The translations under genes and the position numbers were made by a program. Below, piece after piece: positions 42,830 through 60,996 of a stretch of 64,000 nt of DNA. How positions within the stretch are numbered: position 1 is the first letter of the stretch; each line of letters starts with the position of its first letter. Below the pieces are notes generated by a model. The model saw nothing but the letters and a program-made list of their open reading frames with translations, had not been told where the DNA came from and made no database searches. Source of the stretch: Salinicola acroporae (GTDB lineage Bacteria; Pseudomonadota; Gammaproteobacteria; Pseudomonadales; Halomonadaceae); assembly GCF_003206615.1 (NCBI RefSeq), contig NZ_PZJW01000006.1, positions 248,001 to 312,000 on the forward strand. Reading direction: 5' to 3'.

Positions 42830-43513
42830 TCACCAAGGGCGGGCGACCTGCCAGTCGAATACCGGCGCCCCGGGCCACGGTTGGGTTTCGACAGCCCACA
42901 GGCGACCATCTTCCGGCGCTCGCCAAAGTGTGCCGTGAGTGACGTTGCCATCCTGCCAGTTCACGGTTTCATGGCAGACCTGCAACGCTCGAGACATGAG
43001 CGGCAGTTCGATTCGGGAAGGTGTCGCGTCACACTCGAGCAGGGCTGTCGCCTGGCCGTGGTGCAGTTCGCCATCCGCCGTCTGCCACTCCCGCGTGAGA
43101 CGATAGGCGATCGATGAGGAGATCCCTCTCCAAGGGCTTTCGCCGACAATCTCGCCTTTCGCGTCGATGAGTCGGGTGTCGATCAAGTTCTGCTCGAGAC
43201 CGGCGCTACTGTGCAGGTAGCCATCCTTCAGGGCGACGGTGGCCGAGTCGCGGAACTGCCAGTAGGTCATGTCTCCAACCTGACTCGCCAGGATCACCAG
43301 TCCGCCATGCCCCCCGACGTGAAAGTCGAGCGACGCGTAGGAAGTGGCGGCGGCTTGGTCGGACACGCCCCCGGTGGCGGATCCCGGGACCAGGCCATCA
43401 AGGGAGCGCCCACTGCCCAGGGAGCAGCCTGAGAGGATGAGGCTGGCCATGGCGAGACAAAAGAAGACCGCCCGAGGGCGGTCTTCCAGGCGGTAATGAC
43501 GTGCTGCTGTCAT
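42830..43513 (-). CDS. gfcB: GfcB/YjbF-family lipoprotein
   Basis: A 227-residue outer-membrane lipoprotein; the lipobox is LSGC at Cys31 after AVFFCLAMASLI. The body matches YjbF (YWQFRDSATVALKDGYLHSS, GLEQNLIDTRLID). The ATG at 43513 makes a TAATG overlap with the gfcA stop and gives a charged n-region (RLEDRPR), so it is preferred. The alternative ATG at 43450 leaves almost no n-region. With the upstream start, a terminator-like hairpin lies within codons 10-17, which is unusual. Confidence 0.85.
   Translation of the reverse strand: MTAARHYRLEDRPRAVFFCLAMASLILSGCSLGSGRSLDGLVPGSATGGVSDQAAATSYASLDFHVGGHGGLVILASQVGDMTYWQFRDSATVALKDGYLHSSAGLEQNLIDTRLIDAKGEIVGESPWRGISSSIAYRLTREWQTADGELHHGQATALLECDATPSRIELPLMSRALQVCHETVNWQDGNVTHGTLWRAPEDGRLWAVETQPWPGAPVFDWQVARPW
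43463..43486 (-). terminator. Terminator-like hairpin at the gfcA-gfcB junction (possible attenuator)
   Basis: GAAGACCGCCC and GGGCGGTCTTC form a perfect stem with a tight loop. On the minus strand it runs straight into TTTTGTC. It lies 27 bases past the gfcA stop and inside the proposed start of gfcB. It could terminate most gfcA transcripts, leaving gfcBCD to read-through or antitermination. Confidence 0.65.
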
Positions 43514-43746
43514 TACCGGGTCCCGGTCGTACCGGTGGTGCCGGTCGTTCCGGTAGTGCCGTCACTGCCCCCTGCTGCGGCCAGCGCACCGACCGACGAT
43601 GCCGCGGTGCTGGTGCCGACAGACGACGCTGTCGATGCACTAGCGGCGGTGCCGGCTCCGGCGGCGCTGCCCGTTGCAACTTCCTGGGCGACGGCGAGTG
43701 AAGAGACAGCCATTAACGCGACTGCCATTATGGCCAGTTTCTTCAT
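43513..43746 (-). CDS. gfcA: GfcA/YjbE-like small exported Ser/Thr/Ala/Gly-rich protein
   Basis: A 77-residue protein with a clear signal peptide (KKLAIMAVALMAVSSLAVA, cleavage at AVA-Q). The low-complexity mature part is rich in A, S, T and G and ends in GTTGTTGTTGTTGTR, encoded by 9-base tandem units. E. coli GfcA and YjbE are likewise tiny, Thr-rich and head the gfc/yjb operons. AGGAGG at a good distance before ATG 43746 indicates strong translation. Function is unknown; a structural or export-associated role is possible. Confidence 0.85.
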   Translation of the reverse strand: MKKLAIMAVALMAVSSLAVAQEVATGSAAGAGTAASASTASSVGTSTAASSVGALAAAGGSDGTTGTTGTTGTTGTR

Positions 43747-44440: not shown

Positions 44441-44566
44441 TGGTTGATTTGCGAGGAGGCTGAGTCAAGGATTGCTCGACTTCAAATGTTGCGCATCGGT
44501 GATCGGCGGGCGTCGATGATGCGCCATTCTTTTCTATGGAGAACTCGACACGATAATCAGGGCTTC

Positions 44567-44601
44567 GGGGAATGCCGTTAAAATCCCGGGGCGGTAGCGT
44601 G
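44567..44601 (+). promoter_or_regulatory. JUMPstart/ops element (RfaH recruitment) before wza
   Basis: The core GGCGGTAGCGTG (44590-44601) is an exact E. coli-type ops sequence. The bases before it (GTTAAAATCCCGG) resemble the end of JUMPstart (GTTAAGCCAGG). It lies 87 bases upstream of the wza ATG on the transcribed strand. In enterobacteria such elements pause RNA polymerase and load RfaH to suppress polarity in long polysaccharide operons. Confidence 0.85.
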
Positions 44602-44688
44602 TTTAAAATTTATTTTAACAGCGGATGTCATTCACGGGTCATAGTAGTCAGGGCTTTATATGGACGAAATAAAGGGTGTTCGACAGGG

Positions 44689-45876
44689 ATGATGAAAACT
44701 CGCGAAGGTTGCAGTCGCTCTATTTTCCGATGGTGTTTGCCCGTGTTGGCGTTATCGCTGGTCGTTACCGCCTCCGGCTGCGCCTTTGCGCCCGGGGGAC
44801 ACATCGACTATGACACGGATTCTGCCCCTATCGATGATCTGGTCGATATAGAGCCGATCACGCTGGGCCTGGTCCGGACACAGCAGGCGACGACGTCACT
44901 ACGAGGTGGGAGCGGCGAAGATGCCGACCTGCAGCGGGCGGCGGTCGCTTCCCACGATGACCCGGCGCTGGACGACCGCTACGAGTATCACATCGGCATT
45001 GGTGACGTGCTGTCGATCATCGTCTACGACCACCCGGAGTTGACCATACCTGCCGGAAGCGAGCGGCCGACGGAAGACACGGGCAATACGGTCTACAGCG
45101 ACGGAACGATCTTCTATCCCTACGTGGGACGTATCCAGGTGGCCGGACGCACGGTGGAGGATGTCCGCTCCCAGCTTCAGCGGCGCCTGGCGACCTACGT
45201 CACCGAACCCCAGGTCGATGTCAAGGTCGTGGGCTTCAATTCTCAGAAGGTGTACGTCACCGGGCAGGTCGAGAATCCCGGGGTGATGCCCGTCACCAAC
45301 GTTCCGATGACGGTGCTGGATGCCATCAATCTCGGTGGCGGCCTCAATGGGGAAGCCAACTGGCACGACGTGGTGCTGTCGAGAGGCAGCGTCGAAACGC
45401 ATATCGACGTCTATTCGATGCTTCAGAACGGCGATATGCGCCAGAACCAGTTGCTTCGGGACGGGGATGTGCTCCATGTATCCGATATTGGCAGTCAGAA
45501 GGTCTTCGTCATGGGCGAAGTGATGGACCCGGTGACGCTGCCAATGGGGAATTCGCGCCTCTCGCTGACCGATGCGCTGTCCCAGGCAGGCGGGATGGAC
45601 GAGACCCAGGCCAACGCGAAGGGCATTTTCGTGATCCGTCAATCCGCGCCGGACAGCGGCAAGCTGGCCACGGTCTATCAGCTCGATGCACGCAATACGA
45701 CGGCGCTGGTGCTCGGGGCGCAGTTCATGCTGCAGCCCACCGATATCGTCTATGTCACCGCCGCGCCGCTGAGTCGTTGGAACCGGGTCATCAACCAACT
45801 GACCCCGACGATCAGTTCCGTCTATCAGGTGACACGAGCCACGCGTGACTTCGACGAACTTCGCGACGGCAACTGA
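44689..45876 (+). CDS. wza: Polysaccharide export outer-membrane lipoprotein
   Basis: A 395-residue Wza/GfcE-type secretin-like channel. A lipoprotein signal ends TASGC (Cys31). The poly-export domain includes YHIGIGDVLSIIVYDHPEL, YSDGTIFYPYVGRIQVAGRT and EPQVDVKVVGFNSQKVYVTG. Two SLBB domains follow (NPGVMPVTNVPMTVLDAI; KVFVMGEVMDPVTLPMG), with a C-terminal helix region that in Wza forms the outer-membrane barrel. The start is ATG at 44689 (or 44692); the open frame back to 44572 overlaps the ops element and is rejected. First gene of the second polysaccharide operon. Confidence 0.94.
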   Translation: MMKTREGCSRSIFRWCLPVLALSLVVTASGCAFAPGGHIDYDTDSAPIDDLVDIEPITLGLVRTQQATTSLRGGSGEDADLQRAAVASHDDPALDDRYEYHIGIGDVLSIIVYDHPELTIPAGSERPTEDTGNTVYSDGTIFYPYVGRIQVAGRTVEDVRSQLQRRLATYVTEPQVDVKVVGFNSQKVYVTGQVENPGVMPVTNVPMTVLDAINLGGGLNGEANWHDVVLSRGSVETHIDVYSMLQNGDMRQNQLLRDGDVLHVSDIGSQKVFVMGEVMDPVTLPMGNSRLSLTDALSQAGGMDETQANAKGIFVIRQSAPDSGKLATVYQLDARNTTALVLGAQFMLQPTDIVYVTAAPLSRWNRVINQLTPTISSVYQVTRATRDFDELRDGN

Positions 45877-45877
45877 C

Positions 45878-46315
45878 ATGTTCGATCGAATACTGGTGTT
45901 GTGCACCGGCAATATCTGCCGCAGCCCGGTGGCCGAGGCGCTGCTGAGGCAGCGATTCCCCGGCAGGCAGATCGACTCCGCGGGGCTGGGGGCGGTGGTC
46001 GGCGAGGGCGCGGACCCCACGGCCCGGGAACTGGCGGAGCGGGAGGGACTGGACCTGTCCGCCCATGTCGCGCGACAGGTCGATGTCGGCATGTTGCAGT
46101 CCGCCGACCTGGTCCTGGTGATGTCCGATGGTCAGCGTCGAGCGGTGACGGAGCTGCATCCCGCCGCCAGTGGCAAGACGATGCTTCTCACTCGGTGGAC
46201 CGGGGAGGGCGAGGTGCCCGATCCCTATCGCAAGAGTCGGAGCGCTTTCGAACACGTTCATCGTTTGCTGACACAAGCTGCAGATGCCTGGGTAGGCAAG
46301 TTGCCGGATCGCTGA
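45878..46315 (+). CDS. wzb: Low-molecular-weight protein-tyrosine phosphatase
   Basis: A 145-residue cytoplasmic phosphatase with the CX5R loop Cys9-Arg15 (LCTGNICRSP) and the general-acid aspartate in VPDPYRKS. Wzb dephosphorylates the tyrosine-rich tail of Wzc, a cycle required for high-molecular-weight polymer. The ATG at 45878 follows the wza stop by one base; the longer frame inside wza is a shadow. Confidence 0.94.
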   Translation: MFDRILVLCTGNICRSPVAEALLRQRFPGRQIDSAGLGAVVGEGADPTARELAEREGLDLSAHVARQVDVGMLQSADLVLVMSDGQRRAVTELHPAASGKTMLLTRWTGEGEVPDPYRKSRSAFEHVHRLLTQAADAWVGKLPDR

Positions 46316-46319
46316 AAGG

Positions 46320-48539
46320 ATGCAAAAACCCCACATGACCACAAGCAACACATCGACGACATCGACAGCGAGTAACCACGAAGAGATAGACATTCGTCGG
46401 CTGCTGGGGATCTTGCTGGATCACAAGAAATGGGTGATGGCGAGCGTTCTGGGCTTCGCGTTGATCGGAATCGTGTACGCCAGCCTGGCGACACCCATCT
46501 ATCGGGCCGATGCCTTGGTGCAGATCGAGAGTGATTCGCCGGGCAACAATCCGCTCCAGGAGGTGACGAGTCTGCTGGGCGAGAAGCCGCCGACGCTCTC
46601 CGAGATCGAGATCATTCGGTCACGGATGGTGCTGGGCCAGGCGGTCGACCTGCTCAATCTCGACATCAACGTTGCGCCGGTTACCCTGCCGATCATCGGA
46701 GCGTTCTTCGAGCGTCAAGGCATCGGGCGGCCCGGGTTCGCCAGCGGCTGGGGCTATGCGTTCAGCGGCGAGACCATCGCTGTCAGTGAGATGCCGATGG
46801 CCGATGCCTATCTCGGCAAGACGTTCACCCTCGAGGTCCAGGACAGCTACACCTACCGTTTGCGGGATGCCGACGGGGAGTCTCTGGGGTCGGGCAAGGT
46901 CGGCCAGTTGAGTACGTTCCTGAACGGTGACGTTGCCATGCGGGTCACCTCGATCCAGGCACCAGCCGGCGCCGAGTTCACCGTCCAACACGTGCCCCGA
47001 CTGGCAGCCATCAACGGCTTGCGGGGGCGCTTCGAGGTCGGGGAGGCCGGCAGCGAGACGGGGATCCTCAGCTGGAGCCTGACTGGCCCGGATCCGGATG
47101 CCGCCAAGAAGACGCTCAATACGATCGCCGACATTTACTACTCGCAGAACGTTCAACGGCAATCGGAAGAGGCACGCAAGAGCCTCGAGTTCCTGAATAC
47201 TCAGGTGCCGCAGATCCGTAGCCAGTTGAACGAATCGGAGGAAAAACTCAACGAGTATCGTGAGTCCAAGGATAGTGTCGACCTCTCGTTGGAGACGAAA
47301 TCGGTCCTTGAGCGGATCGTGAATCTGGAATCCCAGTTGAACGAACTGGAGATGAGCGAGGCGGAGATCTCGCAGCGTTTCACCAAGAGTCACCCGACCT
47401 ATCAGGCGCTGCTGGAGAAGAAGGCGCAGCTCCAGCGCGAGCGGGACAATCTCGACAAGCAGGTCAAGGGGTTGCCGGAGACTCAGCAAGAGATCCTGCG
47501 GCTGCAGCGGGACGTCGAGGTGACCAACGAGATCTACGTCCAACTGCTCAACAAGGTGCAGGAGACCAAGATAGCCGAGGCCAGCACGGTGGGTAACGTG
47601 CGGATTCTGGACGGTGCCGAGGTTCTGCCGGCACCGGTGGCACCGAACAAGCCACTACTGGTCGCCGTTGCCATCATCGTCGGCTTGATCGTCGGGGTTG
47701 CCGCCGTCTTCCTCAGGGCGCTGTTCAACCGCGGTATCGAAACCCAGGAGCAGATCGAGGATCTGGGGCTGCCGGTCTACGCCACCATTCCGCTGTCGGA
47801 CGAGCAGGGCAAGCTGAATCGACGCGTGAAGCGCTCCGGCAAGGAGTACGCCCGCAGCTATCCCAGCGGTCTGCTGGCCGCGCGCAATCCCGCCGATGTC
47901 TCGGTCGAGGCGCTGCGTGGGCTGCGGACCAGTCTTCACTTCGCCATGCTCGAGGCGGGCAACAATCGGCTGATGATCACTGGACCCAGCCCGGGCGTGG
48001 GCAAGAGCTTCGTCAGCGTCAATCTGGCGACGGTGTGTGCCCAGGCGGGACAGCGCGTGCTCGTCGTCGATGCCGATATGCGCAAGGGGCAGATCCACAG
48101 CGCTTTCGGCGCCGCTTCCGAGAACGGGTTGAGCGATGTGCTGTCCGGCAAGCAGGGGCTCGAGCAGGTGATTCGCCCGGTCGACAAGGTGGACAATCTG
48201 CATTACGTCGCCCGTGGCATGGCGCCGCCGAATCCGTCCGAACTCCTGATGACGCCGCGTTTCAGCGAATTCCTCGCTCAGGTCAGCGAACGCTTCGACC
48301 TGGTCATCGTCGATTCTCCGCCGATTCTCGCGGTGACCGACGCGGCCATCATCGGCAAGCAGATGGGCACGACGCTGATGCTCGCCCGGTTCCAGACCAA
48401 CCCGGTCAAGGAGCTGGAGTTGGCGATCGGCCGGCTGAGGACGGCGGGCGTCGAGCCCCGAGGCGCTATCTTCAATGCCGTGGAGCGCAAGGCCGCTACC
48501 GAGTACGGCTATGGCTACTACCACTACAGCTACAAATGA
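46320..48539 (+). CDS. wzc: Polysaccharide co-polymerase / tyrosine autokinase
   Basis: A 739-residue PCP-2a protein. An N-terminal Wzz domain with TM1 (WVMASVLGFALIGIVYASLA) and a long periplasmic coiled coil (about 275-400) lead to TM2 (LLVAVAIIVGLIVGVAAVFL). The cytoplasmic BY-kinase has Walker A GPSPGVGKSF, Walker A' VLVVDADMRK and Walker B DLVIVDSPP. It ends in a tyrosine cluster (EYGYGYYHYSYK), the autophosphorylation tail. It works with Wza as the export conduit and sets chain length. Start uncertain between ATG 46320 and ATG 46335, since AAAGGA sits right against the first. Confidence 0.94.
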   Translation: MQKPHMTTSNTSTTSTASNHEEIDIRRLLGILLDHKKWVMASVLGFALIGIVYASLATPIYRADALVQIESDSPGNNPLQEVTSLLGEKPPTLSEIEIIRSRMVLGQAVDLLNLDINVAPVTLPIIGAFFERQGIGRPGFASGWGYAFSGETIAVSEMPMADAYLGKTFTLEVQDSYTYRLRDADGESLGSGKVGQLSTFLNGDVAMRVTSIQAPAGAEFTVQHVPRLAAINGLRGRFEVGEAGSETGILSWSLTGPDPDAAKKTLNTIADIYYSQNVQRQSEEARKSLEFLNTQVPQIRSQLNESEEKLNEYRESKDSVDLSLETKSVLERIVNLESQLNELEMSEAEISQRFTKSHPTYQALLEKKAQLQRERDNLDKQVKGLPETQQEILRLQRDVEVTNEIYVQLLNKVQETKIAEASTVGNVRILDGAEVLPAPVAPNKPLLVAVAIIVGLIVGVAAVFLRALFNRGIETQEQIEDLGLPVYATIPLSDEQGKLNRRVKRSGKEYARSYPSGLLAARNPADVSVEALRGLRTSLHFAMLEAGNNRLMITGPSPGVGKSFVSVNLATVCAQAGQRVLVVDADMRKGQIHSAFGAASENGLSDVLSGKQGLEQVIRPVDKVDNLHYVARGMAPPNPSELLMTPRFSEFLAQVSERFDLVIVDSPPILAVTDAAIIGKQMGTTLMLARFQTNPVKELELAIGRLRTAGVEPRGAIFNAVERKAATEYGYGYYHYSYK

Positions 48540-48594: not shown

Positions 48595-49938
48595 ATGACG
48601 CTTTCTCTGCTGGGCGGCAGACACGCCCGGATCGTTTCGCGATTGCGAGGCGAGTTGTTCGTCAACCTCTGCCGCACCTTCGCCGCCAGGGGCATCGCCG
48701 CGCTGGGGACGATCCTGCTGGGGGTCGTCCTGGGTCGCTTCTACGGTGCCCAGGGCGTGGGGGTCTTCGCGTTGGCCCAGAGCGTCATCTTCGGTGCGGG
48801 CATCATTGCCTGCTACGGCCTCAATGGGTCGCTGATGCGCTACATCAGCCAGGACAACGCCAGCCCCTACATCCTGCGCTACCTGCGTTGGGCGCTGGTG
48901 CGGGCGGGCTGGCTGAGCCTGCTCCTGGGGGGCGGGATCGGCCTGCTGCACCGTCAGATCGCCGAGGCCTTTGGTTCGCCCGAGCTCTCGTCGCTGCTGA
49001 TCAGCATCGCGGTGGCGACGCCGGCCTTCACGCTGTCGTTCGTGCTGGCGGGGTTCCTGAAAGGCGTGAACATGCCAGCCAGGGCGAGTCTGCAGGAGAA
49101 CGGCTCGATATCGCTGCTGGCCGCACTCTGCATCCTGGCTACGGTTTTCGTCACCGATTCCCGCTCGCTGCCGCAGGCCGGCTGGGCATTCTGTCTGTCG
49201 GCCTGGCTGGTATGCCTGCAGGGGACTCTCCAGATGGTGCTGTGGTTGCGCCGTCATCCCGCCGTGCAGCGTACCGACGGGGGGAATACCGAGGCGCTGC
49301 CTCATCGAGGCGAGTTCTTCGCCACCGCGCAGAGCTTCATCGTCCTCAACCTGTCGATGTTTCTCCAGCAGGTGGTGGCGATGTTGATTGCCGGGGCGCT
49401 GCTGAGTCACGCCGATCTCGGGCTGTTCAAGTCCGCCGAGCGAGTCGGCATGGTCATCAGCTTCATTCTGCTGGTCATCAACGCGGTCTTCCCGCCGCGT
49501 TTCGCGCAGCTTTTCCATCGTGGCGAGCACGAGGCGCTGGGGCGGCTGGCCCGCCAGAGCTCGATGGTCGCGGCGGGCATGGCAACGCCGCTGGCGATCG
49601 TCTGCTTGCTCTTCCCGGAGTGGGTGCTGGGCTGGTTCGGGCCGGAGTTCCGCGAGGCGGCGAGCCTGTTGCGTATCGTCGTCATCGGCCACCTCGTCAA
49701 CGTGTCGTTCGGCTCGGTGGGTTTCCTGTTGACGATGACGGGGCGAGAGAAGGTGATGCGCAATATTTCCCTGGTCTGCAGCGCTCTGGGACTGTTGGCT
49801 TTCGTGGTGTTGATCCCGCTATGGGGGGCGGTCGGTGCCGCGATCTCTCTCGCCATGGTGCTGGGGATGCAGAACCTGGTCGCGGCATGTTTCGTCTGGC
49901 GTCGGATGGGCATCGTCATGCTGCCGATCCGGCGCTGA
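48595..49938 (+). CDS. wzx: Wzx-type oligosaccharide flippase
   Basis: A 447-residue MOP-superfamily transporter with about 12-14 hydrophobic segments. The N-terminus carries RGIAALGTILLGVVLGRFYG and the later region EWVLGWFGPEFREAASLLRI, both common in polysaccharide-export flippases. It would move the undecaprenyl-linked repeat unit of region 4 across the inner membrane, upstream of the polymerase encoded next. No strong Shine-Dalgarno precedes ATG 48595. Confidence 0.88.
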   Translation: MTLSLLGGRHARIVSRLRGELFVNLCRTFAARGIAALGTILLGVVLGRFYGAQGVGVFALAQSVIFGAGIIACYGLNGSLMRYISQDNASPYILRYLRWALVRAGWLSLLLGGGIGLLHRQIAEAFGSPELSSLLISIAVATPAFTLSFVLAGFLKGVNMPARASLQENGSISLLAALCILATVFVTDSRSLPQAGWAFCLSAWLVCLQGTLQMVLWLRRHPAVQRTDGGNTEALPHRGEFFATAQSFIVLNLSMFLQQVVAMLIAGALLSHADLGLFKSAERVGMVISFILLVINAVFPPRFAQLFHRGEHEALGRLARQSSMVAAGMATPLAIVCLLFPEWVLGWFGPEFREAASLLRIVVIGHLVNVSFGSVGFLLTMTGREKVMRNISLVCSALGLLAFVVLIPLWGAVGAAISLAMVLGMQNLVAACFVWRRMGIVMLPIRR

Positions 49939-50042
49939 ACCGCCACGGATGCCGGGGGCGGACCGGCTCCGGCTCGGCACCTTACCTTGATCGAAATCGC
50001 AGGCCACGGATTGCCGTCGGCGGTTAATGGATAGCGAGAGAC

Positions 50043-51203
50043 ATGCTGGTAATCAACGCCAAACGGCTGTTCGTGGCAATGGCGATCGTTTTCGCCATCG
50101 CGCTACCGAAATCGGGGGTCGCCGTGGGCGGCATCCCCCTCAATACCATCTATCTGCTGATCTGCTTCTCGTTCCCGATCCTGTTTATCAAGGCGATCCT
50201 GGGGACGGGCCAGCTGGGCCGCCAGGATCGCTACTCGATCTACATCTGGTTGCTGATGCCGTTCTGGGCGTTGTTCCTGACGGTGACGCTGCTCAACGGT
50301 ATTGCCAGCGTCGGGATCTACTTCGGTTACATCATGGCGCTGATCGTGGTGCCGATCTTCTTCTACCTATGGTCGAAACGGCTGTCGGCGGAGAACGTTC
50401 GCTATCTGTTGGTCTGTCTGCGCAACTGCACTCGGTTCGCAGTCGCCTTCGGTCTCTTCCTCTTCGTTCTCAAGATCGGAACCGGGCAATATTTCTCCAT
50501 CCCCGCACTGACCACGACCTTCGGCGCCGAGCGGACCCTCGAGGCCCGGATGAACGATCGCGGCGGGATCTACAAGCTGTTCTCGACCTACAACAACGGC
50601 AATATCTACGCGGTCTGCATGATCATGCTGCTGCCGGTCTACGCCGTCATCGAGAAGAACCGGTTGTGGCTCCTGGCGCTGATGCTGACGATCATGTTGA
50701 CGCTCTCGCGCACCGCCTGGGCACTGTTGCTGATCTACTGCGCGTTCGAGTACCTGATCTTCAACAAGGCCATATCGGTCAAGAAACTGATCGTGATCTG
50801 CCTGGCGGTGTGCCTGGTGGTACCGGGCATCATTGGACTGCTGGGCATGATGGGCAAGGACGTCACGTTCCTTTTCGACAGCAATCTGGGCGGCCGGGCG
50901 GCTTATCTGGAGTACTTTTTCGATGCCGGTCTGATCTCCAGTACGCCGATCTACTGGTCCTACGAGATCCCCTACGTCTCCATCGCGGAGTTCGTCGGCC
51001 TGATTGGATTGATCCCTTTTCTGATGTTCTTCGCCAACATCGTGATGGCGCGGAGTCTCTTCGACGCGACCCGGCCGATCAGTCGCGCCGCTTCGATCGG
51101 GTGCGTGATGTATTGGGTCGCGACCTTCTCCGATGCCGCGCTGGTGCTGGTCCCGACCTTCATCATCTATTGCCTGCTGGTAATGCTCTCCTTCAGCGAG
51201 TGA
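50043..51203 (+). CDS. wzy: O-antigen polymerase-like (Wzy) membrane protein
   Basis: A 386-residue polytopic protein with about ten hydrophobic segments and a central loop (FGAERTLEARMNDRGGIYKLF, YNNGNIYAVCMIM). Sequence conservation in Wzy is low; the assignment rests on topology, on LTLSRTAWALLLIYCAFEY and SNLGGRAAYLEYFFD in the usual place, and on its position between wzx and glycosyltransferases. GAGAG precedes ATG 50043. It should polymerise flipped repeat units in the periplasm. Confidence 0.8.
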   Translation: MLVINAKRLFVAMAIVFAIALPKSGVAVGGIPLNTIYLLICFSFPILFIKAILGTGQLGRQDRYSIYIWLLMPFWALFLTVTLLNGIASVGIYFGYIMALIVVPIFFYLWSKRLSAENVRYLLVCLRNCTRFAVAFGLFLFVLKIGTGQYFSIPALTTTFGAERTLEARMNDRGGIYKLFSTYNNGNIYAVCMIMLLPVYAVIEKNRLWLLALMLTIMLTLSRTAWALLLIYCAFEYLIFNKAISVKKLIVICLAVCLVVPGIIGLLGMMGKDVTFLFDSNLGGRAAYLEYFFDAGLISSTPIYWSYEIPYVSIAEFVGLIGLIPFLMFFANIVMARSLFDATRPISRAASIGCVMYWVATFSDAALVLVPTFIIYCLLVMLSFSE

Positions 51204-51207
51204 ATTC

Positions 51208-52285
51208 ATGAAAATCATGCATGTGTGCGAGACGGTGACCGGCGGCATCGCCACGTATCTGAACAATGTGGTGGCGGAGCAGGCGCGACGTCCGGAAGTC
51301 GAGGCCGTGTCGGTGTTGCTGCCGCTCACCCAGCTCGAAGAGATCAACCTGGGCGATATCGACGAGCTGCAGGGCAAGATCCATATCGTCGGGTTCGAGG
51401 GAGACGGCCGGATCCAGCGACTGAAGCATCTTGCACTGCGTCTGCGCGGCGCGGTGTCCCAGGCACGCCCCGATGTGGTGCATGTCCACAGTACCTTCGC
51501 CGGCTTCCTCTGCCGCGCATTGCCGGTCTCTTTCCACGGCGCCAAGTTGATCTATCAGCCTCATGGGGTCGCGTTCGACCCACATCGCATCTCCGGCCTC
51601 AAGAAACATGGCATCGAGTGGGTGGAGAGAGTGTTGTACCGACGCACCGACGGTGTCGTCGCCATCTCGGAGTATGAGCGCGCACTGCTGGAAGCGGCTG
51701 GGATGGGGGACAAGACGCTGCTGATCAAGAACTGCGTGCGCGATACTCGGGAGGCGATCGGCGAGGGGCGCAAGGAGGATTTCTATCTGTTTATCGGGCG
51801 TTTCGATCGTCAGAAAGGGTTCGACCAGCTCCACGCGTTCTGGGGCGAGGATCGCCCGCCGCTGAAGATCGTCGGCGGCAACGTCGTCGATTCCGATGCC
51901 ACGTTTACCGCCCGCGACAACATGGAATTTCTCGGGTGGCAGGACAATACCGCCCTCGACGGGCTGATCGCGCGGGCCAAGGCACTGATTGTCCCCAGCC
52001 GCTGGGAGGGATTCGGGCTGGTGGTTCTGGAGGCGTACCGCAATGCCACCCCGGTGATCTGCTCGAATCGCGGTGCACTGCCCGAGCTGGTGAGTCATGG
52101 CGAGACAGGCTTCGTCTTCGACTTCGACGACTTCTCGGCCTCTCTCTGCGCGGCGATGACGTCCTTCGACCGCTGCGACCGGCAGGCGATGGGCCGGCGC
52201 TGCCGTGAGCATTACGAGCGGGATTTCTCGCCGGCGAGCATGAATACCGAACTCTTGAAACTCTACCAGCCTAGTGGGCAGTGCT

Positions 52286-52293
<8 letters not shown>
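51208..52293 (+). CDS. Glycosyltransferase family 4
   Basis: A 361-residue GT4 enzyme: N-terminal KIMHVCETVTGGIATYLNNV, acceptor-side VVHVHSTFAGFLCRA and IYQPHGVAFDP. Donor-side FIGRFDRQKGFDQL and the E-x7-E motif in RWEGFGLVVLEAYRNATP (WEGFGLVVLE) follow. It is the only ordinary glycosyltransferase in region 4, so with the priming enzyme and the KpsS/LipB-like protein the repeat unit may be short. It overlaps the next gene by 8 bases. Confidence 0.87.
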
Positions 52294-54347
<2,054 letters not shown>

Positions 54348-54348
<1 letters not shown>

Positions 54349-54902
54349 TGCTCCGTCCGGATCTTCGTGACCAGATCGAACTCGTGCTGTTCGATGTCGA
54401 TGGCGTGCTGACCGACGGAACGCTGCTGATCGGCCCGGAGGGCGAATCGCTCAAGCCGTTCAACGTGCGTGATGGCGTCGCGATCGGGCTGCTGAAGCAG
54501 CATGGCATCAAGAGCGGCGTGCTGTCGGCCAAGTCGAGCCAGCCACTACTGACGCGAGCTACCCAGTTGGGCATGGACGTGATCAAGATCGGCTTCAGTC
54601 GCAAGCTCGAAGCCATCCAGCAGATCGCCGAGGAGCAGGGCATTGCCGCCGAGCGTATCGCGTTCGCCGGTGACGATATCATCGATATCCCGGTGATGCG
54701 GAAAGTCGCCGCGGCCTATGCCCCGGCCGACGCCCACCCGCTGGTTCTCGAGGCTGCCGACCATGTGATGACGACCGCCGGCGGTCGTGGTGTCGCACGC
54801 GAGATTGCCGAGGACCTGCTCTTGGCGCGGGGCCTCGACCTGGCCGGGATGTACGCGCACATGCTGGGAGATGACGACGCGCTGCGTCGCCTGGTCCAGT
54901 AA
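54348..54902 (+). CDS. kdsC: 3-deoxy-manno-octulosonate-8-phosphatase
   Basis: A 184-residue HAD-superfamily phosphatase releasing Kdo from Kdo-8-phosphate. Catalytic Asp16 and Asp18 lie in LFDVDGVLTDG. Motif II and the KdsC loop are in NVRDGVAIGLL and VLSAKSSQPL, the conserved lysine in GFSRKLEA, and the metal Asp pair in AFAGDDIIDIPVM. The ATG at 54348 overlaps the kdsA stop (TGATG). Confidence 0.94.
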
Positions 54903-55213: not shown

Positions 55214-56146
55214 ATGAATCTGGAATATCTGGAAACGGCCCGACAGGTCTTCGTCAAGGAAGCCGAATCGCTTCTGGAGGTTTCCCGCAAGCTCGACAAC
55301 GACCTGAGCGCCGCCATCGACGCCATCCTGCAGACGCCGGGACGGGTGATTGTCTGCGGAATGGGCAAATCCGGCATCGTCGGTCGCAAGATAGCGGCGA
55401 CGCTGGCGAGCACCGGCAGCCCGAGCTTCTTCATGCACCCGGGTGAGGCGTACCACGGCGACCTGGGCATGGTGACGCCTCACGACGTCTTCCTGGCGAT
55501 CTCCAATTCGGGAGAGACGGAGGAGGTCGTCAAGCTGATCCCCTATCTCAAGGACAACGGCAACTACCTGGTCGGCATGACCGGTAACCGGAGCTCGACG
55601 CTGGCGCGGGCTTCCCATAGCCATCTCGATATCGGTGTCGTCGAGGAGGCTTGTCCGCTGCAGCTGGCGCCGACATCGTCGACCACCGCCACGCTGGCGA
55701 TGGGGGACGCGCTGGCGGTGACGCTGATGAAGGCGCGGGATTTCCAACCCGAGAACTTTGCCCGGTTCCACCCGGGGGGCTCGCTCGGGCGGCGCCTGTT
55801 GAGCCGGGTCGAGCATGAGATGCGCAGCGACAACCTGCCGGTGGTCAAGGCGGAGGCGGAGGTGCTCGATGTGATTCAGGCGATGTCGCGCGGACAGTTG
55901 GGGATGGCGGTGGTCCAGCACAACGACAGTTGGGGGGTCATCACCGATGGTGACATTCGCCGTGCCATCGAGAAATACGGCGAATACGTCTTTTCCAAGA
56001 AGGCCTACGACTTCATGACGCCGCAGGCGTCGCGAATTGCCCCGACGGCCCGTGTCGAGGATGCGTTGGCGATGATGGAGTCCAGGAAAATCAATGCCCT
56101 GCTGGTTTTCGACAATGACCGGCTGGTGGGGGTTTTCCAGAAATAG
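55214..56146 (+). CDS. kdsD: Arabinose-5-phosphate isomerase (KdsD/KpsF)
   Basis: A 310-residue enzyme converting ribulose-5-phosphate to arabinose-5-phosphate, the first step to Kdo. The SIS domain has VCGMGKSGIVGRKIAATLAS, HPGEAYHGDLG, ISNSGETEEV and TSSTTATLAMGDALA. Two CBS domains follow from about residue 205. Duplicate copies (KpsF, GutQ) accompany capsule loci in other bacteria, so this is probably a polysaccharide-dedicated paralogue; whether the genome has another copy cannot be seen here. Confidence 0.94.
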   Translation: MNLEYLETARQVFVKEAESLLEVSRKLDNDLSAAIDAILQTPGRVIVCGMGKSGIVGRKIAATLASTGSPSFFMHPGEAYHGDLGMVTPHDVFLAISNSGETEEVVKLIPYLKDNGNYLVGMTGNRSSTLARASHSHLDIGVVEEACPLQLAPTSSTTATLAMGDALAVTLMKARDFQPENFARFHPGGSLGRRLLSRVEHEMRSDNLPVVKAEAEVLDVIQAMSRGQLGMAVVQHNDSWGVITDGDIRRAIEKYGEYVFSKKAYDFMTPQASRIAPTARVEDALAMMESRKINALLVFDNDRLVGVFQK

Positions 56147-56217: not shown

Positions 56218-56319
56218 ATGACGGAGTGTGAAATGACCTTCAAGGATGAGGTCCGGCAGCAGTTTTCAACAACAGCTATGTCAAGGGTCATCAGGATGAT
56301 ATCGGGAGAACGAATATGA
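56218..56319 (+). CDS. Possible 33-codon leader ORF coupled to the second WcaJ-like gene
   Basis: ATG at 56218, with AAGGA nine bases upstream, opens a frame (MTECEMTFKDEVRQQF...) whose TGA overlaps the next gene's ATG as ATGA. No homologue is recognised. It may be a coupling leader peptide or chance; the ribosome site and exact overlap are the only support. Confidence 0.35.
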   Translation: MTECEMTFKDEVRQQFSTTAMSRVIRMISGERI

Positions 56320-57677
56320 GAAGTCTGAATCCTGTCAGGCGGTTGGCACCGTTGATCGACGTCATGGCGATTGTGTTGGCGGGGATTCTCGCCAACGGGA
56401 TCCGGTTCCAGACGACGCAACTGGAGAGCGTCAATGCGCTGGTGCTGATCGTGATGGCGCTGGCTGTCGTGCTGATCAACCTGTCCGGCGGCGGTTACAG
56501 CAAGTGGCGCTCCACCCGGCTACGCAGCCGGATCTATCGGCTGCTGTGGGTATGGGCCGCGGTATTCGCGGCAGTGAGCATCCTGATGTTCCTGCTCAAG
56601 CTGTCGGACGAGGTGTCCCGCCAGTGGCTGGTGTTCACCTTCATGCTGTCGTTCTGTCTGGTCGCCGCCTCCCGGGCGCTGCTGATGATGCTGACGATGT
56701 ACCACAACGGCAGCATTCGCAATCGACGCAAGGTGTTCCTGGTCGGGCCTGAGGAGAATCTGCTCGATGTGGCGCGTTCGTTGCGTCGGCATCAGGAGCA
56801 GGGGTATGCGATCGCCGGCGTCTGCCGCGGGCGCGTGCTGCGGGCGGAGAAGGCGCCGCGCAACCTGGCTCGCCGGGTGGAGAAGTCGGGTGCCCATGAG
56901 GTGTGGATCTGCCTGTCCGTCTCCGAGGGCGAACATGTCAAGGCGATCATGTACAACCTCCGCCATCTGCCGCTGGAAATTCGCTTCATTCCCCATTTTG
57001 CCGACATCCCGCTGCTCAACCATCGCGTCAGCCATATCGCCGGCACCCATGCCATCGACCTTAGCGTCAGCCCGATAGCCGGCAGTGCATTGTGGGTCAA
57101 GCGGCTCGAGGACATCGTCATCGGCGGTCTGATCCTGCTGCTGATCGCGCCGGTCTGCGCGGCTTGCGCCATCGCCGTCAAGTTCTCATCCCCCGGCCCG
57201 GTGCTGTTCAAGCAACTGCGTACCGGTGCCAATGGCCAAGACGTTCAGGTCTACAAGTTTCGCTCGATGAAACTGCATCAGGAGGAGAACGGCCAGGTTG
57301 CCCAGGCGACGCGGCGGGATCCTCGAATCACGCGGGTCGGCGCGTTTCTGCGCCGTACCTCGCTGGATGAGTTGCCGCAGTTCATCAACGTGATTCAGGG
57401 GCGCATGTCGATCGTCGGCCCGCGGCCCCATGCCTTGGCGCACAACGAGTATTACAAGGACCTGGTCGAGTCGTACATGCAGCGGCACATGGTGAAACCG
57501 GGGATTACCGGCTGGGCCCAGGTTCGTGGTTTCCGCGGTGAGACCGATACGCTGGACAAGATGCAGCACCGCGTCGAGCACGACCTCTGGTACATCAACA
57601 ATTGGTCCTTGCTGCTGGACCTCAAGATCATCTTCCTGACGGTCTTCAAGGGTTTCACCGGCAACAACGCCTACTGA
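56316..57677 (+). CDS. Undecaprenyl-phosphate sugar-1-phosphate transferase (second WcaJ-type gene)
   Basis: A 453-residue priming enzyme. Hydrophobic segments occupy the first ~120 residues; a Rossmann-like region (KVFLVGPEENLLDVA) follows. The bacterial sugar-transferase domain contains KRLEDIVIGG, YKFRSMKLH, RRTSLDELPQFINVIQGRMS and VGPRPH, and ends GFTGNNAY. GGGAG precedes ATG 56316. It is paralogous to the gene at 6864 but clearly diverged, so the two polysaccharides are primed separately. The primed sugar is probably glucose by family; not certain. Confidence 0.92.
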   Translation: MRSLNPVRRLAPLIDVMAIVLAGILANGIRFQTTQLESVNALVLIVMALAVVLINLSGGGYSKWRSTRLRSRIYRLLWVWAAVFAAVSILMFLLKLSDEVSRQWLVFTFMLSFCLVAASRALLMMLTMYHNGSIRNRRKVFLVGPEENLLDVARSLRRHQEQGYAIAGVCRGRVLRAEKAPRNLARRVEKSGAHEVWICLSVSEGEHVKAIMYNLRHLPLEIRFIPHFADIPLLNHRVSHIAGTHAIDLSVSPIAGSALWVKRLEDIVIGGLILLLIAPVCAACAIAVKFSSPGPVLFKQLRTGANGQDVQVYKFRSMKLHQEENGQVAQATRRDPRITRVGAFLRRTSLDELPQFINVIQGRMSIVGPRPHALAHNEYYKDLVESYMQRHMVKPGITGWAQVRGFRGETDTLDKMQHRVEHDLWYINNWSLLLDLKIIFLTVFKGFTGNNAY

Positions 57678-57815
57678 TCCTTTCCTGTCTTCGGCCGCCG
57701 CTGGCCGCCGCAGTCCTCTCGTATCAAACGCAATCTCGCCGCTGCCTTCTCATCCGCTGTGACGTCGGCGGGACAAGTGCGGCGCGCTTCAACCCAATGC
57801 CCAAGGAAAGCTCTC

Positions 57816-58874
57816 GTGGAACAGACGACGGCAGCACGCTATCGATGGATCGATCTCGTCAGAGGGACGGCAGTCGTCCTGGTGATCGTGCTTCATTCCC
57901 AGTACGGGATTTCGATTCGCTATGACGGACTCTGGTCCTGGCTCCCGCTGATGTCTGAATATCTGGCACCGTTCAGGATGCCGGTGCTGATGTTCCTGTC
58001 GGGCCTGATGGTGGCGCGGTCACTCCGGAAAGGGCCGCGGCGGTTCTTCACCGGAAAGCTCAAGAACATTGCCCACCCCTACGTGGTGTGGACGCTCGTG
58101 GCCTTCGTGCTCTATTCACTGCGCTGGGTGCTGATGAACGAGCCCATGCCGGATGAGCTGTTTCCGCTGCTGATCCTGCCCTACAACTATCTCTGGTTCC
58201 TGTACTGCCTCTTCATCTACTACATCCTCGCTTTCTTCCTGTTCAAGTTGAGTGCCAAGGGTGCGGTCGCGGTGACGTTGGTCGGCTATCTGCTCTATTT
58301 CTACCTGGCCCAGCACCTGGCACCGGATTGGCTGCTGGTGCCGGACGACGACGGCCGGATGGTGCCGACGCTACCGACCAAGATCGTCTTCTATGCGGTC
58401 TTCTTCATGCTCGGCGGCTGGCTGGGCGAAAACCTGAGCGGATTCGCCGAGGGGCTCGCGCGGCTGAATCCGTTGGTGGTCTGGCTGCTGGTGGCGATCT
58501 GCCTGGCTGGCTACCTGCTGCCGCTGCATCCATTCTCGCCGGTCTATCTGCTGATCTCCCTGGCGTCGCTGGTGCCGCTGGCGCGTCTCGCCATGCTTGG
58601 GTGGGTGCAGCGCTGCACGACACTGCTGCAGTGGTGCGGACGCCAGTCGATCGTGCTTTTCGTTGCCCACATGCCGATCATTCTGGTGATCGTCACGGTC
58701 CTGTCGAAAGCGATGCCCGATTCGAATGCCAACCTGGTGTTCGCGCTGCTCTTCGTCGTGACCTTTATCTGCTGCTGTGTTCTGGCACGTATGTCTCAGC
58801 GCTGGGCCGCGGTCAGATTCCTGTTCGCCTACAACCTGAAGGGGCGTCAGGTTCGGGTCGGGAGCCGGGCCTGA
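57816..58874 (+). CDS. Acyltransferase 3 family membrane protein
   Basis: A 352-residue protein with about ten hydrophobic segments, starting WIDLVRGTAVVLVIVLHSQ with the catalytic-type histidine, then RMPVLMFLSGLMVARSL and LPYNYLWFLYCLF. This is the acyltransferase-3 family (PF01757), typically O-acetylating or succinylating sugars at the membrane. The GTG at 57816 with AAGGAA upstream is favoured; no ATG fits before the first helix. It probably decorates the region 4 polymer. Confidence 0.86.
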   Translation: MEQTTAARYRWIDLVRGTAVVLVIVLHSQYGISIRYDGLWSWLPLMSEYLAPFRMPVLMFLSGLMVARSLRKGPRRFFTGKLKNIAHPYVVWTLVAFVLYSLRWVLMNEPMPDELFPLLILPYNYLWFLYCLFIYYILAFFLFKLSAKGAVAVTLVGYLLYFYLAQHLAPDWLLVPDDDGRMVPTLPTKIVFYAVFFMLGGWLGENLSGFAEGLARLNPLVVWLLVAICLAGYLLPLHPFSPVYLLISLASLVPLARLAMLGWVQRCTTLLQWCGRQSIVLFVAHMPIILVIVTVLSKAMPDSNANLVFALLFVVTFICCCVLARMSQRWAAVRFLFAYNLKGRQVRVGSRA

Positions 58875-58979: not shown

Positions 58980-60965
58980 ATGGAAAGGAGCCATTCGTTG
59001 GGTAAGGAACAGAAGTATCTCTACGAGATCCAGGGGTTGCGAGCCGTCGCGGCACTGATGGTCGCCGTCTATCACATCTGGATTCAGCGCGTCTCGGGCG
59101 GCGTCGATGTCTTCTTCGTGGTTGCCGCCTTCTTCGTCGTGGGATCGCTGACACGTCGGGTGCCGCTGTCGTTGGCCGATGTGCTGGATTACTACGGCAA
59201 GACACTACGGCGGCTACTGCCGAGCGCGGCGCTGGTGGTGTGCACGACGATTCTACTGTCAATGTGGTTGATGCCGGACTCGATGTGGCGCAACCAGATC
59301 AAGCATGCAATGGCGTCGATGCTGTTTCTGGAGAACTGGTCGCTGGCGTTGACTGCCACCGACTATCTCCAGCAGGGGGCACCGCCGTCGCCGTTTCAAC
59401 AGCTCTGGGCACTGGCGGTTCAGGTACAGTTCTATTTCGCGTTTCCGCTGCTGCTTTGGGCAGGGTTGAAGCTCGATTCACGCCGGGGGCGTGGGGACAA
59501 CCGCTCCTGCGTGCTGCTGCTGGTGGCAATCACCGTCCTGTCGCTCTGCTACAGCATCTACATTACCGAGAAGAATCAATCCTGGGCCTATTTCGATACC
59601 TTTGCCCGGGCTTGGGAATTCGCCCTTGGCGGGCTGCTCGCGCTCGGGATATCGCGGGTCTCGCTGTCACCGTCCGCTGCGAAGATGCTGGGTTGGATCT
59701 CGCTGGTCGTGCTGACGACCTTCGCCCTGTTTCTCGACGTTTCGACCCTGTTCCCCGGCGTCGTCGCCCTGGTGCCGGTGCTTGCCGCGATCGGAATCGT
59801 CATCGCGGCGCGGAACCGGTGCGACATGCGGTTGCTGAACAACCGATTCGTCGTCTGGTTCGGGGACATGTCGTTCTCGTTCTATCTCTGGCACTGGCCG
59901 CTGCTCTCTTTCTATCGCTATGTCACCGGATCGTTCGATGTCGGCCTCCTTCCGGGGCTGGCGATCATCGGCGGGGCCGGCGTTCTCGCCTTCCTGACCA
60001 CATGGGGCCTCGAAACACCGGTGCGGCGCTCGACGCTGCTGTCTCGTCGGCGCATTCACACCTATGGCGCCTGCGTGCTGTTGATGGCATTTCCCCTTGC
60101 CTCGTTGGCAATGTGGTATCAGGACTATCAGGGGCGTAGCGCGGCAGCTAGATCGGAACTCGCGGCGTTCCTGCGCGCGCCCGATGGTCCTGATGACGAT
60201 CTCCAGCCGTCGACCCTGATCGCCAGCATGGATCTGCCCGCATCCTCGTTCGATGGTTGCCATCAGAACTATCTGCAGCCCGAGGTCAGAGAGTGTACTT
60301 ATGGCGATCCGGATGCGGACTATACGGTCGTGCTCGCGGGCGGCTCCCATGCCCAGCACTGGCTGGCGGCACTGAAGGTCGCAGCGGAGCGCGAGGCGTT
60401 CCGGTTGATCTCGATGACAAAGGGGGCCTGCATGCTATCGACCGATCCGCATGCCCGCTATCAGGTCAACCCATCCTGTCTGGCATGGAATCGAGAGGCA
60501 CTCGAGCGTCTTGGCGAGTTGAAACCCGACCTGGTATTTACCACGGCGACTCGAGGACAGGGGCCGGAGGAGCGCGTGCCCAAGGGGTATCGGCAAGCGT
60601 GGCAGCGGTTGGCCGACGACGACATCGATGTACTCGCGATTCGCGACAACCCCTGGTACGGGTTCGACGTGCCCAAGTGTGTCGACCTCCAGGATAATCC
60701 GAGCGTGGCGTGTTCCATCCCCAGGCGCTCGGTGTTGAAGGCGCAATCGCCCACCGACCAGGTTCACCTGCCGAACGTCCAGTTCGCCGACCTGAGCGAT
60801 CTCTTCTGCGACGACCGGCGCTGCTCGCCGCTGCGGGACAACGTGTTGGTCTACCGCGATGATCATCACATTACCAACACGTTCTCCTATCTGGCGGCGG
60901 ATCGCATCATCGCGGCGCTGCATCGGGCGGAGTCGACATTCGACGACCCACCTCGAGGAGGTTGA
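58980..60965 (+). CDS. OafA/YrhL-type acyltransferase with SGNH domain
   Basis: A 661-residue two-domain enzyme. The N-terminal acyltransferase-3 domain (about residues 12-385) has YEIQGLRAVAALMVAVYHIW, GGVDVFFVVAAFFVVG and FSFYLWHWPLLSFYRYV. The periplasmic SGNH-type C-terminal domain contains VVLAGGSHAQHWLAAL (nucleophile Ser in GGSHA) and ends with a DDHHITNTFSYLAA catalytic Asp-His block. Such fusions O-acetylate polysaccharides: the membrane part hands acetyl groups to the SGNH part. It is the second modifying acyltransferase in the locus. Confidence 0.92.
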   Translation: MERSHSLGKEQKYLYEIQGLRAVAALMVAVYHIWIQRVSGGVDVFFVVAAFFVVGSLTRRVPLSLADVLDYYGKTLRRLLPSAALVVCTTILLSMWLMPDSMWRNQIKHAMASMLFLENWSLALTATDYLQQGAPPSPFQQLWALAVQVQFYFAFPLLLWAGLKLDSRRGRGDNRSCVLLLVAITVLSLCYSIYITEKNQSWAYFDTFARAWEFALGGLLALGISRVSLSPSAAKMLGWISLVVLTTFALFLDVSTLFPGVVALVPVLAAIGIVIAARNRCDMRLLNNRFVVWFGDMSFSFYLWHWPLLSFYRYVTGSFDVGLLPGLAIIGGAGVLAFLTTWGLETPVRRSTLLSRRRIHTYGACVLLMAFPLASLAMWYQDYQGRSAAARSELAAFLRAPDGPDDDLQPSTLIASMDLPASSFDGCHQNYLQPEVRECTYGDPDADYTVVLAGGSHAQHWLAALKVAAEREAFRLISMTKGACMLSTDPHARYQVNPSCLAWNREALERLGELKPDLVFTTATRGQGPEERVPKGYRQAWQRLADDDIDVLAIRDNPWYGFDVPKCVDLQDNPSVACSIPRRSVLKAQSPTDQVHLPNVQFADLSDLFCDDRRCSPLRDNVLVYRDDHHITNTFSYLAADRIIAALHRAESTFDDPPRGG

Positions 60966-60974
60966 AACGCAAGG

Positions 60975-60996
60975 CGCCGGCAGGATACTGCCGGCG
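60975..60996 (+). terminator. Stem-loop after the acyltransferase operon
   Basis: CGCCGGCAG-GATA-CTGCCGGCG is a perfect 9-bp stem, 9 bases after the last acyltransferase stop. No T-run follows, so it is only a possible terminator or 3'-end stabiliser. Confidence 0.45.

Follow-up and report, generated by a model that had tools for sequence, protein, structure and literature searches.

An ops element before wza of Salinicola acroporae predicted to recruit RfaH, and exact ops copies within KpsD-like export genes of Halomonadaceae

We found that the leader of a capsule/exopolysaccharide operon of Salinicola acroporae carries an exact ops element, which, judging from its sequence and setting, is very probably the RfaH-recruitment site of this operon. 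Because RfaH is present, ops is conserved, ops enrichment is tied to RfaH and the adjoining hairpin covaries, we hold it to be highly probable that the element is a canonical RfaH/ops site, ordinary in mechanism and located in a little-studied lineage. Within Halomonadaceae, RfaH/ops is a nearly universal means of controlling surface polysaccharide operons; therefore, the present case is not exceptional in the family. Most of the interest lies with a probable new variant, in which ops is placed inside the coding sequence of KpsD-like export genes. Our literature search returned no mention of ops elements of Halomonas or Salinicola, nor of a functional intragenic ops.

The window, i.e., the whole stretch of 64 kb that was analysed, belongs to an essentially complete assembly of 4.37 Mb. 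It contains a single exact copy of GGCGGTAGCGTG, and the number expected from base composition is 0.024 per 64 kb window (both strands). The 12 nt lie in the operon leader, on its non-template strand, which is one of the features by which members of the RfaH/ops system are recognized. The preliminary description had placed an exact ops core 87 nt 5′ of wza, and this spacing is correct because the wza ATG lies at 44689; it had also put the element at the head of a long polysaccharide operon, and a co-directional Wza/Wzb/Wzc and Kdo capsule operon of ~16 kb indeed follows. The features of the leader and the operon are as follows.

44562..44592, + strand: JUMPstart-like hairpin, arms 44562-44570 and 44584-44592, the 3′ arm covering ops bases 1-3 (covariation)
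44590..44601, + strand: ops element, predicted RfaH-loading and RNA polymerase pause site, GGCGGTAGCGTG (exact 12/12 match; exact in nearly all Halomonadaceae wza leaders)
44602..44688, + strand: remainder of the wza leader with a weak ribosome-binding site, CAGGGATGATG (from sequence)
44689..45876, + strand: wza, outer-membrane polysaccharide export lipoprotein (NF011658, 432 bits; Wza_C domain)
45845..46315, + strand: wzb, low-molecular-weight tyrosine phosphatase, start codon uncertain (PF01451)
46320..48539, + strand: wzc, tyrosine autokinase/chain-length protein (PF02706, PF13807; NF008568, 837 bits)
48595..49938, + strand: wzx-like flippase (PF01943)
50027..51211, + strand: operon gene whose position suggests a polymerase or transferase (no match in Pfam or NCBIfam)
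51208-52293, + strand: glycosyltransferase (PF00534)
52274-53503, + strand: Capsule_synth protein (PF05159)
53500-54348, + strand: kdsA, Kdo supply (NF009109)
54240-54902, + strand: kdsC-like, Kdo supply, start uncertain (TIGR01670)
55214-56146, + strand: kdsD-like, Kdo supply (TIGR00393)
56316-57677, + strand: initiating sugar transferase (PF02397)
57759-58874 and 58980-60965, + strand: two acyltransferases (PF01757, PF19040)
60975..60996, no strand assigned: GC-rich inverted repeat at the operon end, possible terminator (pattern scan only)

All genes from wza to the last acyltransferase, which ends at 60965, are read in the same direction, and wza shares 95% identity with its counterpart in Salinicola lusitanus. 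On the opposite side, the leader is neighbored by a divergent YjbF/GfcC/YjbH-type operon. This divergent gfc/yjb-type operon is headed by a small ORF (43513-43745, − strand) that resembles a secreted protein rich in Thr, Ala and Val; by eye, and by its position, it is YjbE/GfcA-like.

The RfaH paralogue that had been predicted from the element is encoded at C29:508046 (L002). The protein matches TIGR01955 with 174.2 bits (cut-off 144.5) and NF006534 with 145 bits (cut-off 124), and it is one of two NusG-domain proteins of the genome, being distinct from NusG itself, which is encoded in the secE-nusG-rplK context. Among solved structures E. coli RfaH is the nearest (E 7e-28), and in the alignment with it K10, H20, Q24, T72, R73, G74, V75, E48 and R138 are kept. 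Thus, all three base-specific ops contacts (K10, H20, R73) are present in Salinicola, and the residues of the putative autoinhibitory interface, E48 and R138, are conserved. Among Halomonadaceae RfaH proteins K10, Q24, T72, R73, G74, V75, E48 and R138 are likewise conserved, and H20 is mostly kept, with N in a few genomes. E. coli RfaH contacts ops through K10, H20, R23 and R73, the defect of R23A being only moderate (PMC5995543). R23 is N in RfaH of this genome and is replaced, mostly by N, across Halomonadaceae, with ops unchanged; this residue is not essential to the definition of the RfaH family, because the curated TIGR01955 cut-off is passed without it. For the C-terminal domain AlphaFold2 returned a beta-barrel of low confidence (pTM 0.53, shallow alignment), a model that speaks neither for nor against the helical state.

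Conservation of ops before wza in relatives, which the preliminary description had made a test of its proposal, was borne out. In the set of the 80 nearest wza loci, each named Salinicola locus has an exact ops ahead of wza, as do most loci from other Halomonadaceae, with differing ops-to-wza spacing; the other genera include Halomonas, Chromohalobacter, Kushneria, Modicisalibacter and Litchfieldella. A minority of Halomonas-type wza loci have no exact ops within 3 kb upstream. Altogether, 44 Halomonadaceae sequences are wza leaders with exact ops, 12 of them (the window counted) from Salinicola or Salinicola-like members, and many of the flanks have diverged.

We determined that exact ops is enriched only where the genome carries RfaH. 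This protein scores above the cut-off in 133 of 151 Halomonadaceae genomes, and these carriers have on average 5.36 exact ops per genome vs 1.71 copies of a reversed-pattern control, while the 14 genomes without RfaH have 1.00 and 1.36, respectively. Carriers and non-carriers differ in ops (Mann-Whitney p 4e-8) and not in the control (p 0.15), although these p values are not phylogenetically independent because the genomes are related. The loss of ops enrichment alongside RfaH amounts to a clean natural experiment. In a genus represented by three genomes without RfaH (g7), wza is kept and ops is absent, the best candidate having four mismatches. One genome in which RfaH was not detected (G111) retains ops before wza, which may reflect a recent loss of RfaH or an assembly gap.

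The flank of ops had been called JUMPstart-like, and this holds for structure and fails for formal family membership. Rfam JUMPstart RF01707 aligns at the exact spot in the same arrangement, yet its score of 15.1 bits falls short of the gathering cut-off of 35 bits. Across 41 wza leaders 91.8% of the cells of the hairpin are paired and 30 cells are changed on both sides; none of 500 shuffles reaches the observed pairing, and sliding the arms gives at most 57%. A conserved JUMPstart-type stem-loop abuts ops, and the name is right structurally because covariation supports this hairpin. Like the window, the RF01707 motif (PMC2864571) has one stem-loop just 5′ of ops in polysaccharide leaders; in contrast to it, the stem in the window extends into the first three ops bases. 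The ops-JUMPstart leaders of E. coli and Klebsiella (wza, O-antigen, kps) share with Salinicola the identical 12-nt ops, the stem-loop immediately 5′ of it, the location ahead of the gene that opens a long polysaccharide operon and RfaH encoded in trans. They differ from Salinicola in the sequence of the hairpin, which in the latter stays below the RF01707 cut-off, in RfaH, which in Salinicola is without R23, and in the host, here a halophilic member of Halomonadaceae.

The mechanism that we propose for wza follows the standard model of RfaH/ops recruitment and polarity suppression known from E. coli (PMC6391919). In the wza leader, polymerase would first produce the hairpin, its 3′ arm abutting ops, and would then pause at ops, where RfaH would read the exposed non-template strand (hairpin). 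RfaH would remain on polymerase to the operon end, keeping NusG/Rho off, and would couple transcription to ribosomes along ~16 kb, from wza to the acyltransferases. Our analysis shows the element, the conserved hairpin, RfaH with its contact residues, the family-wide conservation and the co-occurrence of RfaH and ops. By analogy with E. coli, we infer pausing, RfaH binding, the fold switch and polarity suppression along the 16 kb. Two coding ops in KpsD-like genes are most likely further loading sites of the same RfaH.

Could a GC-rich genome have produced the 12-mer by chance? Base composition predicts 1.6 exact copies genome-wide against the 5 found, and one of these, at C32:7459 (+), has the look of chance, as it lies antisense to the ‘TLPPFGAN’ codons and occurs in a minority of paralogue copies only; this copy was set aside as probably fortuitous. 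Yet the expectation for an exact ops on the right strand in the 300 nt before wza is ~6e-5, the element is exact in the 44 Halomonadaceae wza leaders despite the divergence of many flanks, and the number of ops copies depends on the presence of RfaH. Conservation and the RfaH-less controls thus refute chance, to which we give next to no credence. Equally hard to credit is that ops lies inside an N-terminally extended wza: the frame is indeed open from an ATG at 44572 (ORF 44572..45876), but the lipoprotein signal and lipobox begin at 44689/44692, and in five relatives (L037, L065, L080, L086, L091) the frame is interrupted between ops and wza.

Somewhat more room, if still little, is left for an element that works mainly through RNA structure or attenuation in the leader (hairpin and pause) and without RfaH, e.g., as a JUMPstart RNA with another ligand. 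The covariation that supports the hairpin would fit this explanation, as would a terminator-like hairpin that the long wza leader contains 5′ of ops (44509-44525, + strand), a possible attenuator known from a pattern match that occurs at about shuffle frequency. However, the 12 ops bases are invariant across wza leaders whereas the hairpin sequence drifts with compensation, ops enrichment vanishes without RfaH, and the hairpin is more simply regarded as an accessory of the pause. An attenuator of this kind is therefore improbable, and recruitment of RfaH at ops is the reading that we retain.

The preliminary description had also proposed a search for other ops copies, and the genome yielded four more exact ones besides that of the window. 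Four of the five copies are in conserved, sensible places. Two lie inside genes, at C29:702945-702956 (−) (L113) and C32:7684-7695 (−) (L114). Their host genes encode KpsD-like SLBB export proteins and are followed by ABC-2 and ABC transporter genes; upstream are cysNC and a small lipoprotein gene. The coding ops is in frame and reads V-A-V-A-C within the hydrophobic signal-peptide core. It is exact in 31 of 32 copies examined from 18 Salinicola genomes, and elsewhere in five genomes of a second genus and one of a third, another having a single mismatch; it begins at ORF nt 42 in all copies but one (nt 45). Over 39 gene copies, the 10 codons that vary least out of 224 conserved degenerate ones include codons 13-17 (hypergeometric p 6e-8, with codons treated as independent), and Val16 is GTA in every copy, a codon that makes up 8% of Val codons in these genes. 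In one group Cys18 is changed to Trp with ops intact. By these sequence comparisons, it is the DNA that is conserved here rather than the protein. The coding ops is preceded by its own hairpin, CCGGGC-N5-GYCTGG, which is 100% paired vs at most 50% when slid and displays slight covariation (one double change); in two loci (L130, L131) the stem is retained although the encoded residues change.

A leader ops without a coding copy occurs in five Halomonadaceae genomes and in one of another family; it is located ahead of the lipoprotein gene, 505-650 nt 5′ of the match. In the stretch examined, genomes with the coding ops lack a leader copy, and three members of Halomonadaceae have neither. The occurrence of leader and coding ops in different genomes suggests, at the level of sequence, a relocation of ops from the leader to within the KpsD-like gene. 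The search for the coding form CTGGTGGCGGTAGCGTG across the order gave a single match outside the family, which lies outside any signal peptide, and among distant KpsD-like relatives one leader ops (L278) and no coding ops were found.

ChIP work on E. coli CFT073 found that RfaH does not bind at 22 ops sites on the sense strand of coding regions, and it was proposed that established NusG-ribosome coupling blocks RfaH at such sites (PMC9765446). These ops-like sites have in common with the two Salinicola KpsD-like genes an exact intragenic ops on the sense strand. Unlike them, the Salinicola copies are situated 42-53 nt past the start codon, have a hairpin of their own and show no synonymous drift. 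Placed ~50 nt past the start and after an untranslated gap of ~150 nt, ops could escape the NusG-ribosome block. We consider it likely that in Salinicola and several related genera a working ops moved into coding sequence, where it would load RfaH ~50 nt beyond the start codon, ahead of coupling by the first ribosome. Since coding ops of E. coli do not recruit RfaH, the Salinicola coding ops is a directly testable variant. An ops kept for its DNA right after the start codon offers a means to probe how near to the translation start RfaH can load, and how signal-peptide codons can double as a recruitment site.

Further ops copies were observed before variable genes. A conserved ops with a long hairpin, GGGATGATGGTAACCATCGTCATCC, is located at C23:197453-197464 (+) (L003, L251) and heads a slot with downstream genes that differ among Salinicola genomes, at no fewer than 12 sites. 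Some genes of this slot resemble candidate anti-phage genes, with weak matches to PD-T7-1 and HEC-09 and a clearer one to PDC-S31. A second recurrent ops class, ..CAGGTAGGGGCGGTAGCGTG, is found before variable genes in some Salinicola genomes (L191, L196, L208, L217, L220, L244), and one of the genes downstream matches PDC-M45A.
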